Positions 6,812 to 49,700 of a stretch of DNA of 64,000 nucleotides are shown in pieces. Every line of letters starts with the position of its first letter. Position 1 is the stretch's first letter. Location: NCBI RefSeq assembly GCF_040126305.1, contig NZ_CP149510.1, positions 907,001 through 971,000 of the forward strand, read 5' to 3'. This DNA comes from Pararhizobium sp. A13 (GTDB lineage Bacteria; Pseudomonadota; Alphaproteobacteria; Rhizobiales; Rhizobiaceae). Made by a program: the position numbers and the translations under genes. The notes under the pieces were generated by a model. That model saw nothing but the letters and a program-made list of their open reading frames with translations. It ran no database searches and had not been told where the DNA came from.

Positions 6812-7297
6812 TTATTCGGCTTCGTTTGCCGGCGCGGCGTTGAGCTGGCCGTATTTCTCGGCACCGATCTTGTTGAAGAGATCGAGCTGGGTTTCGAGGA
6901 AGTCGATGTGACTCTCCTCGTCCGAAAGCAGCTCTTCGAACAGTCTCATGGAAACATAGTCGCCCGCGCCATGACAGATATCGCGGGAGCTCTTGTAGGC
7001 CGTGCGGGCGTCGTATTCACCGGCAAGGTCGGCTTCCAGCACTTCCTTGACGTTCTGGCCGATGCGCAGCGGCGCAACCGTCTGCAGGTTGGGATGGCCT
7101 TCGAGGAAGATGATGCGGGCGATCAGCTTGTCCGCATGGTGCATTTCCTCGATCGATTCAGCCCGCTCCTTCTTGGCGAGAAGCGTATAGCCCCAGTCCT
7201 CAAGAAGGCGATAGTGAACCCAGTATTGATTGACCGCACCGAGCTCGAGGAAAAGGGCTTCGTTAAGCCGCTCGATGACTTTTATGTCGCCTTTCAA
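6812..7297 (-). CDS. bfr: Bacterioferritin
   Basis: Bacterioferritin stores iron in a 24-subunit haem-containing shell. The 161-residue protein has the family start [15 protein letters not shown]. Ferroxidase-site residues are visible: Glu18 in [10 protein letters not shown], Glu51 and His54 around the [10 protein letters not shown] segment, Glu94 in EYDART, and Glu127/His130 in [10 protein letters not shown]. Met52, the haem ligand, is present. Its start lies inside the 3' end of the bfd-like gene, so the two are probably translated from one mRNA. An Irr-type box upstream of the pair predicts iron-dependent control. Confidence 0.96.
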
Positions 7298-7574
7298 GAT
7301 CCGCTCTCCTGTTTTCTTCGTGGAATTGTTTGAGGCGGGTCATGAAATCAAATATCTGGTCATCCGTCGAGGGGCGGCTGGCATGATATTGCTCGGTGGT
7401 GCGGATGATGATGTCGACGACATTGGGGAAACAGCCGCAGCAACGGCCGCGCTTTTCCATCGCGTGGTAAACCTTTGCAGGAACGATCAGCTGCCAACAG
7501 TCCTCATCGAGGAGCCCGATGATGGTGTCCTCGATGTCCTTGTCGGTGATGAAATTGCAGCTACAAACCAGCAT
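7263..7574 (-). CDS. bfd: Bacterioferritin-associated ferredoxin-like (2Fe-2S) protein
   Basis: Bfd delivers electrons to bacterioferritin for iron release. The N-terminal [16 protein letters not shown] and the CCGCFPNV segment supply the Cys-x-Cys and the Cys pair of the Fer2_BFD fold (about residues 4-50). I chose ATG 7574 because the Bfd fold starts there; an upstream in-frame ATG adds nine unsupported residues. At 103 aa it is longer than the usual ~65-75 aa: the tail ([20 protein letters not shown]) reads past the bfr start, overlapping it by 35 bp in another frame. The tail is an unusual feature and may simply reflect run-on into bfr. Confidence 0.82.
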
Positions 7575-7676
7575 CTCGCCTGCCCGTGATACGCAACGCA
7601 CTGAATTTCTTCATAAAGCAAAAGCGGATATTTACTGTCAACAAAAAATTCTGCTCGGTATTTTGCACCTAGAATA

Positions 7677-7693
7677 TTAGATCGATTCTAAAC
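7677..7693 (-). promoter_or_regulatory. Irr-type iron control element (ICE) upstream of bfd-bfr
   Basis: On the minus strand the 17-mer TTTAGAATCGATCTAAT is a close match to the rhizobial Irr box (TTTAGAA-N3-TTCTAAA), with two mismatches in the right half. It lies about 100 bp upstream of the bfd start. Irr represses iron-storage or activates iron-use genes in rhizobia depending on promoter position. The surrounding 7575-7888 stretch is AT-rich, holds no credible gene, and carries the direct repeat CTTGATCA at 7694 and 7729. Confidence 0.5.
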
Positions 7694-7888
7694 TTGATCA
7701 AAAATATCGAATTTTCATTGACTTAATCTTGATCAGGAGAGACTGGACTGCCCTTCCCGATCGTCTTCAAAATTTCTTGACCGCCAAAAATGCCGAACAA
7801 ATTTTGTTACAAGCGAGCTCTGATCTGCGCGTCGGTCTCGCCTGCCCCCAATTTGCCGATAACTGCGGGGTGGATCCTCCTGTCTGGG

Positions 7889-47154: not shown

Positions 47155-47162
47155 TATATTTT
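47155..47162. repeat. Target site duplication, left copy
   Basis: TATATTTT immediately left of the element matches the 8 bp immediately right of it (49693-49700). Confidence 0.88.
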
Positions 47163-47186
47163 GGCGATATTATATTTGACAAACCC
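47163..47186 (+). repeat. Left terminal inverted repeat
   Basis: This end contains ATTTGACAAACCC, which matches ATTTGACACACCC in the right repeat read inward. The TTGACA inside it is also a promoter -35 hexamer. Confidence 0.88.
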
Positions 47187-47204
47187 AACCTAAAAGCCTA
47201 CAAA
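47176..47204 (+). promoter_or_regulatory. Inward promoter from the left repeat (transposase)
   Basis: TTGACA (47176-47181), a 17-bp spacer, and TACAAA (47199-47204) form a sigma-70 type promoter 22 bp upstream of the transposase ATG. Confidence 0.6.
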
Positions 47205-47225
47205 GGTTCAAGAAGTTAGGTTTGG

Positions 47226-48191
47226 ATGTTCGCCATGTCAATTTTGAGCAAGGAATATTTTCACAACGAGGCGGCAGCTTTCGAGCATGTCGAAAGTGTT
47301 TTGTGGGCTAACGGTCCGACTTGCCCTCATTGCGGAAACGTCGACAAGATCTACAAACTGGAGGGCGTACGCTCCAAGCCTTCGAAAAAGAACCCGCATG
47401 GTGTAGAGCGTCACGGCTTGAGGAAGTGTGCAGCCTGCCGCCAGCAGTTTACGGTGCGCATGGGTACGATCTTTGAAGAAAGCCATATCCCGCTCCACAA
47501 GTGGCTACAGGCTATTCACCTGATTTGTTCCAGCAAGAAGGGTATCAGCTCTAACCAGCTTCATCGCGTTTTGGAAATCACGCTCAAGTCGGCTTGGTTC
47601 CTGTCGCACCGCATCCGCGAAGCAATGCGGTCTGGTGAACTGGAGCCGATGGGCGGCAACGGTAAGACTGTTGAAGCCGACGAAACCTATTTTGGCGACA
47701 AGAAGGAAGTCACCACCCGCACGAAGCGCGGCAAGTCTGGCCTGTCGAGCAAGCGTGCTATCGTTTCGCTTGTCGAGCGTGGTGGCAAGGTTCGTTCCTT
47801 CCATGTAGATCGCGCCGACAAGAGGACTGTCACCAATATCGTCTGGCACAACATCCACAAGGAAACGACGTTCTACAGCGACGAGAGCCGCCTTTATGGT
47901 GATGTTCATTCGAAGCTGGAGAACAGCGATTCCGTCAACCACACGTCTGGCGAATACGTTCGCGGCATGGTGCATACGAACACCGTGGAAGGCTACTACA
48001 GCATCTTCAAGCGTGGCATGAAGGGTATCTACCAGCATTGCAGCGAGAAGCACCTACACCGCTATCTGGCTGAGTTTGATTTCCGTTATAACAATCGCGT
48101 TGCGCTCGGCACGAACGATCAGGAACGCGCCTTGAATGCGCTGGTTGGCGTCAAGGGCAAGCGGCTTACCTACGTTCCATCTGGTTTCTGA
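47226..48191 (+). CDS. IS1595-family transposase (ISXO2-like)
   Basis: The 321-residue transposase has an N-terminal zinc ribbon (Cys pairs in CPHCGNVDK and LRKCAACRQQF, about residues 33-71) typical of IS1595 proteins, and a central helix-turn-helix region (SSNQLHRVLEITLKSAWFL). The catalytic domain shows VEADETYFGDKKE (first acidic residue), TTFYSDESRLY (second), and HTNTVEGYYSIFKRGMKGIYQH with the following HRYLAEFDFRYNNR. It looks intact, so the element may be active. ATG 47226 or 47235 may be used. Confidence 0.94.
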   Translation: MFAMSILSKEYFHNEAAAFEHVESVLWANGPTCPHCGNVDKIYKLEGVRSKPSKKNPHGVERHGLRKCAACRQQFTVRMGTIFEESHIPLHKWLQAIHLICSSKKGISSNQLHRVLEITLKSAWFLSHRIREAMRSGELEPMGGNGKTVEADETYFGDKKEVTTRTKRGKSGLSSKRAIVSLVERGGKVRSFHVDRADKRTVTNIVWHNIHKETTFYSDESRLYGDVHSKLENSDSVNHTSGEYVRGMVHTNTVEGYYSIFKRGMKGIYQHCSEKHLHRYLAEFDFRYNNRVALGTNDQERALNALVGVKGKRLTYVPSGF

Positions 48192-48235
48192 GCCGATTCG
48201 GAGGCGGAACGAGATTCAGCTTTCGTTCTATTTTC

Positions 48236-48264
48236 TTGACGACTCCGGCTAAATACCCTATATA
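48236..48264 (+). promoter_or_regulatory. Strong sigma-70 type promoter inside the element
   Basis: TTGACG (48236-48241), exactly 17 bp, then TATATA (48259-48264). The expected start is near 48271, the first base of a predicted three-way-junction RNA. Confidence 0.75.
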
Positions 48265-48270
48265 GGTGGT

Positions 48271-48316
48271 GCCGGGGATACGTCGAAACGTATCAGGGTG
48301 TAAAAACCCGCCCGGC
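48271..48316 (+). ncRNA. Predicted structured RNA, three-way junction, next to DUF3800 gene
   Basis: GCCGGG (48271-48276) pairs with CCCGGC (48311-48316), closing a junction with two hairpins: GATACGT/ACGTATC (48277-48283 and 48288-48294) with a CGAA tetraloop, and GGGT/ACCC (48296-48299 and 48306-48309). Only one unpaired base separates the helices. A promoter with ideal spacing ends 6 bp upstream, so the transcript would begin with the closing stem. The RNA could extend into 48321-48344, where ATTCCC and GGGAAT form another hairpin over the end of the DUF3800 gene. Families of candidate RNAs named after DUF3800 neighbours have been reported; I cannot say whether this is one. Confidence 0.55.
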
Positions 48317-48318
48317 GG

Positions 48319-49083
48319 CTATTCCCACCCACGTGTGGGGAATTTCACCAAGCCATAGCCGTTAATATCTCCGTCAGGCCGGGCCCTGAACGATGGGCGT
48401 AGCATTTGAAAATATAGCTCGTCCTTGTGATTGAAAGCGCGGCCGATGGCGCCAGACACCATGTCGGCCATTTGAACACCTACACTCATATGGGATGGCG
48501 TCAAGAAAATGCACTCTACGAAGTTACCGTAGTTGCTTACATAGGCGTTTTCCCCATCTACCATGTCCAAATGGTTCACGCGGAATATGTCGTCTTGCTT
48601 GCGGCCGCGATGATCCGCCACAACGAGCCCTAGTTGGGTGTTGCCTACAGTCTTACTCAGGTCTTGCAGATGGTACTGGAATCGCTCTGAGACCGGCTTG
48701 TAGGTGTAGTGGTACAGCTTTTCCGCGTCGGTAACCGACGGCAGTTTATAGGCCGCTGACACGCTTGCCACGCAAGCGATAATTTTAACGCTCTTGCGTC
48801 TGAGTAGGATGTTAAAATACTCATTCCGGAAGCTATCTTTATGCGCCTGGTCGAGGTGGCCGACGGAATTATCCGGTTCGGTATTGTGGGCGCCAAAGTA
48901 GCGCCACTTTATCTCGCCTGTTATGCTGTATTGTGGTTTAGCGCAGAGCTTGCGTACCTCACTGGCTATCCCATGCCACTGAGACTCGTGCATGATAACC
49001 GCGCCGATAACAAAGTAGGGGTTCGATTTCTTCGAATCTGGCTTTGGCGGCGTCCCGCTCTCGTCAATGAAACAGAAGTGCAT
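48319..49083 (-). CDS. DUF3800 domain-containing protein (passenger)
   Basis: The 254-residue protein starts MHFCFIDESGTPPKPD; the Phe-Ile-Asp-Glu-Ser-Gly motif is the mark of DUF3800, thought to adopt an RNase H-like fold. Other acidic motifs are LVVADHRGRKQDD and the C-terminal VQMADMVSGAIGRAF, consistent with a metal-dependent nuclease. Function is unknown; DUF3800 proteins often sit in mobile elements. It is convergent with the transposase and its 3' end faces the structured RNA. ATG 49083 is 5 bp from the divergent 49089 start. Confidence 0.85.
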   Translation of the reverse strand: MHFCFIDESGTPPKPDSKKSNPYFVIGAVIMHESQWHGIASEVRKLCAKPQYSITGEIKWRYFGAHNTEPDNSVGHLDQAHKDSFRNEYFNILLRRKSVKIIACVASVSAAYKLPSVTDAEKLYHYTYKPVSERFQYHLQDLSKTVGNTQLGLVVADHRGRKQDDIFRVNHLDMVDGENAYVSNYGNFVECIFLTPSHMSVGVQMADMVSGAIGRAFNHKDELYFQMLRPSFRARPDGDINGYGLVKFPTRGWE

Positions 49084-49088
49084 TTCCT

Positions 49089-49262
49089 ATGACCCATCCA
49101 AACGTAGAAAAGAGCCAAGCGGACAAGTTCAAGGAAGCCGCTCGCGAGCTGGAAACAGACGACAACGAGGAACGCTTCAACGCGACCCTAGGAAAATTAG
49201 CCAAATCGCCGCCGCCATCGAAAGATGAGAAGCCGACGAAGGACAAGAAGCCCGCCAAATAG
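49089..49262 (+). CDS. Small charged protein (57 aa), passenger
   Basis: I do not recognise a named family. The protein is a short helix (KSQADKFKEAARELETDDNE, then ERFNATLGKLAK) followed by a disordered Lys/Pro tail. Similar short proteins, as I recall, accompany DUF3800 genes elsewhere. It diverges from the DUF3800 gene with only 5 bp between their starts, so the two probably share a control region. The stop overlaps the stem of a terminator. Confidence 0.7.
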   Translation: MTHPNVEKSQADKFKEAARELETDDNEERFNATLGKLAKSPPPSKDEKPTKDKKPAK

Positions 49263-49272
49263 GCGGGTTTTT
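49248..49272 (+). terminator. Rho-independent terminator overlapping the small passenger gene stop
   Basis: AAGCCCGCC (49248-49256) pairs with GGCGGGTTT (49262-49270) over a 5-nt loop, followed by TT; the TAG stop lies in the loop/stem. Confidence 0.85.
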
Positions 49273-49277
49273 AACGT

Positions 49278-49484
49278 CTACTCCTTGGGAGCGAAAATTT
49301 CGCTCGTCCCAGAGCTTCGCATGATGTCCACGCCGCGACGGCAGTCAGCTTTGTTTTTGTAGCCTTCGCTGCTAACTGCAATCTCCTCGCCGTTGGTGGC
49401 ATAAAAAACCCACCTCCATTCGGAGGAATTATCTTTGTACATCCAATAACATGGGTACTTCAAACCATTGGGACGGACTGGCAT
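49278..49484 (-). CDS. DUF1508/YegP-family protein (passenger)
   Basis: The 68-residue protein matches the DUF1508 (YegP) pattern: YPCYWMYKDNSSEWRWVFYATNGE, IAVSSEGYKNKADCRRGVDIM, ending in SSGTSEIFAPKE. Members are small alpha/beta proteins of unknown role. ATG 49484 follows GAGG with 9-nt spacing. The start codon overlaps that of the divergent 58-aa ORF (shared CATG). The right repeat of the element supplies a possible promoter reading into it. Confidence 0.78.
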   Translation of the reverse strand: MPVRPNGLKYPCYWMYKDNSSEWRWVFYATNGEEIAVSSEGYKNKADCRRGVDIMRSSGTSEIFAPKE

Positions 49485-49659
49485 GGAAAAACACCTCAAC
49501 ACTTACGGTTTCAAATATCGGTTCAATGACCGCAACTATGCGCTTGTGGTTGAGGCCCAGAGTGAAGCCGCCGCTAAAGAGGAAGTCTTAGCAATCGCTA
49601 AGGCGGTATTCATCAGCGAACTATCTCCAGTTTCAACCCACGATTCGCATATTAGCTGA
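49483..49659 (+). CDS. Small passenger ORF (58 aa), unknown
   Basis: ATG 49483 sits in the CATG shared with the opposite-strand DUF1508 start. The protein (MEKHLNTYGFKYRFNDRNYA, then LVVEAQSEAAAKEEVLAI, ending in ISELSPVSTHDSHIS) has a beta-beta-alpha pattern like many small phage-type proteins. A weak ribosome site (GGGACGGACTGGC) precedes it. It ends 33 bp from the right end of the element. Coding status is probable, not certain. Confidence 0.55.
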   Translation: MEKHLNTYGFKYRFNDRNYALVVEAQSEAAAKEEVLAIAKAVFISELSPVSTHDSHIS

Positions 49660-49679
49660 TTCTCGCGTGGGTGTGTCAA
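49651..49679 (-). promoter_or_regulatory. Inward promoter from the right repeat
   Basis: On the minus strand TTGACA (49679-49674) lies in the right inverted repeat and is followed after 17 bp by GCTAAT (49656-49651), a 4/6 match to the -10. It would read toward DUF1508 and DUF3800. Confidence 0.5.
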
Positions 49680-49692
49680 ATATAATATCGCG
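49669..49692 (-). repeat. Right terminal inverted repeat
   Basis: Read inward from 49692, this end matches the left repeat except for the outermost base and one internal base (ACACACCC versus ACAAACCC). Confidence 0.88.
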
Positions 49693-49700
49693 TATATTTT
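49693..49700. repeat. Target site duplication, right copy
   Basis: TATATTTT, identical to 47155-47162. Confidence 0.88.

Follow-up and report, generated by a model that had tools for sequence, protein, structure and literature searches.

The window analysed here (the whole stretch of 64,000 nucleotides) holds a transposon in which a predicted promoter leads directly into a small folded RNA, beside a gene for a DUF3800 protein. The question raised by this locus is whether the RNA and the protein belong together and, if so, what the one does to the other.

The transposon and its junction RNA

The first-pass annotation had placed the RNA inside an IS1595-type element, between the transposase and a convergent DUF3800 gene, and this was borne out by the repeats and the transposase matches (Table 1). 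The element has an IS1595 transposase and terminal inverted repeats, and it is flanked on both sides by an 8-bp repeat (TATATTTT; 47155-47162, 49693-49700), a repeat length typical of IS1595. A related element (L011) has the same terminal repeats, with 8-bp flanks read by eye as AATAAATT. The order of transposase, RNA, convergent DUF3800 and 57-aa ORF, the last beginning 5 bp away from the start of the divergent DUF3800 gene, was also observed in L009, L010, L011, L021 and L033, and in L213 with a DUF3800 remnant of less than 40 residues. The full element is present as one copy in its own genome. A second IS1595-type transposase, 54% identical, is encoded in the same genome (G000:C1:2343110-2344057) and is followed by a 260-aa ORF with no Pfam match.

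Table 1. Features of the RNA-DUF3800 locus, in window positions
Feature	Position	Strand	Basis
IS1595-type transposon with cargo	47163..49692	.	2,530 bp; terminal inverted repeats 47163-47187, 49668-49692
IS1595 transposase, 321 aa	47226..48191	+	PF12762 107.7 bits; NF033547 188.2 bits
Promoter TTGACG-N17-TATATA	48236-48264	+	TTGACG 48236-48241, 17 nt, TATATA 48259-48264, read from sequence
Three-way-junction RNA core	48271..48316	+	fold, covariation, model match
DUF3800 protein, 254 aa	48319..49083	-	PF12686 60.2 bits (curated cut-off 21); stop codon 48319-48321
57-aa charged ORF	49089..49262	+	no Pfam match; relatives by tblastn in related IS1595 elements

The promoter and the three-way junction were located where they had first been noted. 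Read one base earlier, the promoter becomes CTTGAC-N17-CTATAT (48235-48263), which we take to be the alphaproteobacterial housekeeping consensus; a stricter sigma-70 scan did not list the 48236-48264 promoter, because that scan requires the second hexamer to end in T. The RNA is closed by a stem P1 (GCCGGG 48271-48276 with CCCGGC 48311-48316) and holds the hairpins P2 (GATACGT-CGAA-ACGTATC, 48277-48294, arms 48277-48283/48288-48294) and P3 (GGGT-GTAAAA-ACCC, 48296-48309, arms 48296-48299/48306-48309), with one unpaired junction base at 48295 and one at 48310. The 48 nt from 48271 to 48318 folded at -26.1 kcal/mol (z -4.38), and none of 200 shuffles folded as well; for the longer 48271-48344 the z-score was -3.19, with 2 of 200 shuffles as good. 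In a fold scan of both strands of the window, 127,740 positions were tried as starts and 208 of them gave a three-way junction with an energy of -20 kcal/mol or better. Of these 208, only 48271 was preceded, at a distance of 5-8 nt, by the end of a promoter with 9 or more of 12 matches, a cut-off equal to the score of the window's own promoter. By energy alone this start was unexceptional (-24.4 kcal/mol, against 12 best starts all below -28 kcal/mol).

The RNA had also been described as partly antisense to the 3' end of the DUF3800 gene. The junction itself ends 2 nt before the DUF3800 stop codon. A transcript would have to extend past the junction to be antisense to the coding sequence, and the description stands for such a longer transcript alone. 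A further hairpin (48322-48341) lies inside the DUF3800 gene, and the 10 nt that follow the core include only 3 T. Over 12 nt, the P3 region (48301-48312) is perfectly complementary to the sequence after the small ORF (49262-49273). By eye this match was absent from three relatives; it was therefore probably due to chance and was set aside as a functional pairing.

Conservation of the RNA beside DUF3800 genes

The proposed pairing of this RNA with DUF3800 proved to be real. In 43 of 43 close relatives, the window included, the RNA was located directly beyond the 3' end of the DUF3800 gene and convergent with it. These are 43 distinct contigs, in several phyla, with DUF3800 proteins 36-100% identical to the query. 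The search drew on named genomes, which gave 26 loci, on whole genomes of both the family and the class, and on viral contigs; 487 homologous protein matches, which carry no DNA context, are excluded from the count. A DUF3800 relative was found in 5 of 297 whole genomes of the family and 3 of 313 of the class (own genome included), and the whole-genome searches supplied L007, L008, L279 and L280; L005 and L006 were left out as duplicates of L011 and L009. The RNA was counted at 33 loci first, then at eight (L218-L221, L223, L225-L227; L218 and L219 are the contigs of L037 and L038) and then at two (L279, L280). Of two models of the RNA, R1 and R2, the first had 32 of the 43 loci in its training alignment, while 11 loci were outside the training of the model that found them (L007, L218-L221, L223 and L225-L227 for R1; L279 and L280 for R2). 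L218 and L219 scored like the trained L036. In the window, which is in the R1 training set, the R1 match covered 48270-48319.

As read from the taxonomy, the pair is spread over Alpha-, Beta- and Gammaproteobacteria, Actinomycetota, Sedimentisphaerales and Acidiferrales. Each of 28 genomes had one RNA copy, the exception being Pseudohoeflea with two, and in the loci read no more than about 45 nt separated the core from the DUF3800 stop codon. No DUF3800 gene of the window's subfamily was seen without the RNA among the loci examined. With R1, the RNA type was found in none of 19 other loci with transposase relatives (L260-L278) and in none of six loci with distant DUF3800 genes (L233-L238), and there was no convincing match beside the distant DUF3800 genes of L162-L167; the RNA type therefore accompanies one DUF3800 subfamily. 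Under strict filters and in a sparse draw, R1 matched only the window's own genome among 398 genomes and R2 matched none of 299, which speaks to rarity only.

Compensatory changes, a check suggested by the first-pass annotation, were examined in three alignments, and covariation was observed in each. In A1 (32 sequences, window included) 91.4% of cells paired and 12 of 17 pairs had changes on both sides, which 8 of 500 shuffles reached; the covariation score was 0.513, against 0.212 +/- 0.014 in shuffles (0 of 500 as high) and 0.05-0.14 with slid partners. The corresponding values for A5 (32 sequences, window's subgroup left out) were 97.8% and 11 of 17 pairs (0 of 500 shuffles), with a score of 0.488 against 0.193 shuffled, and for the window's subgroup (5 sequences) 97.5% and 4 of 16 pairs (2 of 500 shuffles), with 0.237 against 0.125. 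A count of further pair types was unremarkable in A1 (105 of 500 shuffles) and in the window's subgroup (206 of 500), and was the weaker measure in A5 (9 of 500). Since the relatives keep the helices with compensatory changes, the pairing claim survived the test that could have refuted it.

Other features also distinguish the RNA strand. It folded better than its complement in 45 of 45 sequences, related to each other and a few nearly identical, by a mean of 3.6 kcal/mol, and its three covarying helices have conserved loop letters. Upstream of the closing stem, the top-scoring -35/-10 pair averaged 8.15 of 12 over 33 loci, compared with 5.68 +/- 1.36 for base shuffles, and a score of at least 9 was reached at 13 of the 33 loci and in 2.2% of shuffles. 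The core, of about 46-57 nt, starts at the predicted transcription start, and at 19 of 33 loci it is followed by a T-run (5 or more T among the next 10 nt), a T count that has no shuffled control. Taken together, covariation, promoter and T-runs support a putative small-RNA gene with its own predicted promoter.

The window RNA appears to be a divergent member of this RNA family. R2, which was trained without the window's subgroup, gave no match to the window copy at E up to 10. When applied to 12 left-out loci with a known RNA, R2 found 7 (L226 at 5e-9; L020, L220, L030 and L007 at 2e-5 to 2.5e-4; L010 at 0.0046; L011 at 0.1), and it missed L008, L009, L021, L035 and L193. With the window copy missed by R2, its place in the family is argued from its position and architecture, from the homologous protein and from graded intermediates, and not from an independent model score.

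The transposon is one of several settings for the pair, as a transposase was found near the RNA locus in 7 of 44 loci examined (window included, within the DNA examined). Among the 19 other IS1595 loci without the window's RNA, 10 had relatives of the 57-aa ORF. Ten neighbouring ORFs in these sister loci, chosen partly by eye, comprised five other DUF3800 genes, two SocA/Panacea, one DUF433 and two without a match. In one sister element (L261), the known RNA DUF3800-VII was located between the transposase and a convergent DUF3800 gene (47.4 bits, gathering 36.2); the Rfam scan for this family covered 11 of the 19 sister loci. The IS1595 cargo slot accepts different DUF3800 genes, and the RNA-DUF3800 pair is supported as an optional cargo of the transposon. 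Two further sister loci (L267, L268) have, by eye, a promoter-like sequence and a folded RNA, unnamed by Rfam, in the gap before DUF3800. Nothing on point about IS1595 cargo was found among the literature matches listed.

Copies of the RNA without an intact DUF3800 gene were also observed. With tighter patterns, 20 stretches were obtained from viral contigs, of which 14 were model-positive (L086, L199, L204, L206, L207 and L209 were model-negative and were dropped); 8 of these adjoin DUF3800 and 6, representing 5 distinct cases, have no intact DUF3800 (L202, L203, L210, L213, and the near-identical L212 and L214). A loose DNA pattern gave at least 120 stretches in viral contigs, and the 80 loci listed yielded 5 model matches, the best at E 0.34 and none credible. 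Pseudohoeflea carries, besides a full transposon pair elsewhere in the genome, a solitary 130-bp copy with the promoter, the RNA and the last few DUF3800 codons (L197:1330-1378, also L193). The region around this copy is a prophage that carries integrase, replication and tail genes and runs off the end of the contig. The two Pseudohoeflea copies have 4 differences in 130 bp, all outside the 85-nt promoter-RNA core (p 0.013, with the core defined afterwards). The DUF3800 gene of L029 has an internal stop and that of L280 matches only from residue 57 with a stop inside, and their RNAs scored 65.5 bits (R1, trained) and 62.1 bits (R2, untrained), respectively. The RNAs of L212/L214, L213 and L193 may merely outlast a recent deletion, because DUF3800 remnants are kept there. 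The solitary RNA at L202:7798-7850 lies 4 nt past the end of a convergent ORF (6940-7794). By eye this ORF looks like an Rpn/PD-(D/E)XK-type nuclease, which might be a swapped partner or chance.

Known RNA families and distant cousins

A relation to the candidate RNA motifs named after DUF3800 had been suggested, and it was found for relatives of the window RNA and not for the window copy. No Rfam family matched the window at the gathering threshold and no DUF3800 motif was found around the locus at E up to 10; matches near the locus to abiF, P9 and FMN (E up to 10) were far below their cut-offs and were taken as chance. Rfam DUF3800 families at gathering were absent from 32 related loci, and L029 had none at E up to 10. 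In a permissive scan, DUF3800-VI (RF02915) was placed exactly on the RNA in 3 of 12 loci: L213 with 36.0 bits, which passes the gathering score of 35, L012 with 32.3 and L013 with 28.0. The window's relatives grade into DUF3800-VI, whose structure line has the same three-way-junction layout and which is likewise found beside DUF3800. The window copy differs in giving no match and in being downstream and convergent, whereas the copy in Pseudomonas phage Marin (45.2 bits) is upstream of DUF3800 on the same strand. DUF3800-VI is typed as cis-regulatory in Rfam, whereas the window RNA looks like a separate transcription unit. The label of RF02915 may need revision, as relatives look promoter-driven, separate and often convergent. 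DUF3800-VII (RF02967) shares with the window RNA the slot between an IS1595 transposase and a convergent DUF3800 gene, but is longer (90 positions) and has another fold and another DUF3800 subfamily.

More distant DUF3800 genes were found on small ColE1-like E. coli plasmids of 5.1 and 6.9 kb (L164, L165). On these two plasmids and in one phage, the order was a junction RNA, a strong terminator-like hairpin and a distant DUF3800 gene, all on the same strand; the plasmid junction RNAs are unnamed by Rfam. No recognised RNA of the window's kind was found at L162, L163 and L167, also with distant DUF3800 genes. BjrC68, a Bradyrhizobium sRNA, was sub-threshold beside L162 and L163 and was rejected as a DUF3800 RNA because its model gives hits widely across the order: 50 of 199 genomes were hit at E 0.001, and 5 passed the cut-off of the model.

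A putative RNA antitoxin of a predicted nuclease

The AlphaFold2 model of the window DUF3800 (pLDDT 95) matched the RNase HII fold with Foldseek and VIA-align at 12% identity, and the protein models as a predicted RNase HII-like nuclease. D7, E8, D157 and D207 are invariant in 90 sequences and may be the counterparts of the RNase HII DEDD tetrad. The window protein differs from RNase HII in its low identity and in being paired with a small RNA, and its activity is predicted only. A PDB sequence search with the protein gave nothing significant, and NCBIfam sortase matches were far below cut-off and were rejected. The match to defence proteins was weak (PDC-M04A, an uncharacterised candidate, 1.5e-10, residues 4-63), and PDC-M04 was not found in the literature search. 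No known type III toxin family was matched by DUF3800 in the scans run. The literature passages seen on DUF3800 give an RNase H fold and RNA association, and no function beyond these.

The RNA probably controls or neutralises the enzyme, as the pair of RNA and nuclease gene recurs in distant bacteria and in viruses. Our preferred reading, to which we give a probability of about 0.5, is that the RNA binds and restrains the nuclease as a type III-like RNA-antitoxin module. The junction RNA of ~50 nt would be made in excess and would bind the nuclease and hold it inactive; the pair would stabilise its carrier and/or abort phage infection, and RNA copies without the protein gene, on phages and in the prophage, would act as antidotes. 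Among the loci examined, RNA-only copies were seen and DUF3800-only copies of this subfamily were not, which is the asymmetry expected of an antitoxin, and an antitoxin-like SocA/Panacea protein is present in two sister IS1595 loci. Against the antitoxin reading, the convergent arrangement in the window rules out an operon shared by RNA and protein with a leaky terminator between them, and distant DUF3800 genes occur without the window's RNA type.

Known systems resemble this module in part. In the sections seen of one report (PMC12373285), AbiF/RCd22 of C. difficile is an RNA-antitoxin system with a nuclease-type protein and a small structured RNA that has its own promoter, and the RNA-terminator-gene order seen there is also that of the distant DUF3800 cousins on E. 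coli plasmids and phage. It differs in the protein family, in having two RNA motifs and in an RNA co-transcribed with the gene, and its antitoxin function is proven, whereas that of the window pair is put forward here as a proposal. According to an excerpt on phage PhiTE (PMC3475682), this phage carries an RNA mimic of the ToxIN RNA antitoxin, and such phage-borne mimics resemble the solitary RNA copies; ToxIN differs in its tandem-repeat antitoxin and in its toxin family. A type III tandem-repeat antitoxin upstream in one operon was not found at the window locus, where the RNA is a single convergent copy.

The main rival to the antitoxin reading is an activator role, in which the RNA is a required cofactor and forms with DUF3800 a ribonucleoprotein nuclease without a variable guide. 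The constant association of RNA and protein and the predicted nuclease fold speak for it, and in some CRISPR loci DUF3800 is described as an accessory nuclease (PMC10910872 and PMC12669027, in the parts seen). However, phages and a prophage keep RNA copies that have no protein gene with them, and an extra invariant activator would be of no obvious help to a phage, so we consider this role unlikely, though it deserves serious weight. Control in cis is improbable. Here DUF3800 expression would be limited either by transcription of the RNA antisense to the 3' end of the mRNA or by pairing of the RNA with the 3' UTR. The convergent genes, the short distance to the stop codon and the entry of a longer window transcript into the gene might suggest this, but the core is outside the coding sequence, covariation and strand bias indicate a folded RNA, and in the phage and E. 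coli plasmid cousins the RNA precedes the gene on the same strand, a position that allows no antisense pairing. A nuclease guide, raised at first and favoured by an RNA and a predicted nuclease lying together within an IS element, is very improbable, as no room for a guide is visible (the core of about 46-57 nt is followed by a T-run at 19 of 33 loci, or by the nearby DUF3800 stop, with no variable segment) and most loci are outside IS1595. It is just as improbable that the RNA is a mere bidirectional terminator with a chance promoter, which its position between convergent genes and the T-runs would allow, since promoters are enriched toward the RNA, three helices with conserved loop letters covary, and copies occur without either neighbour.

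RNAs beside DUF3800 are already known from Rfam (DUF3800-I, -VI, -VII and -IX). A broader and more tentative proposal, which we hold somewhat short of even odds, is that DUF3800 proteins act as toxins with an RNase HII fold and that cognate junction RNAs neutralise them. The pairs would then form a large, unrecognised class of RNA-antitoxin systems exchanged by IS1595 transposons, phages and small plasmids, with the orphan RNAs of phages as antidotes. For this family the window offers a compact pair, an RNA of about 50 nt and a protein of 254 aa with a confident predicted fold and candidate active-site residues, together with natural RNA-only copies and a slot in which DUF3800 genes swap, one of them with a different known RNA.
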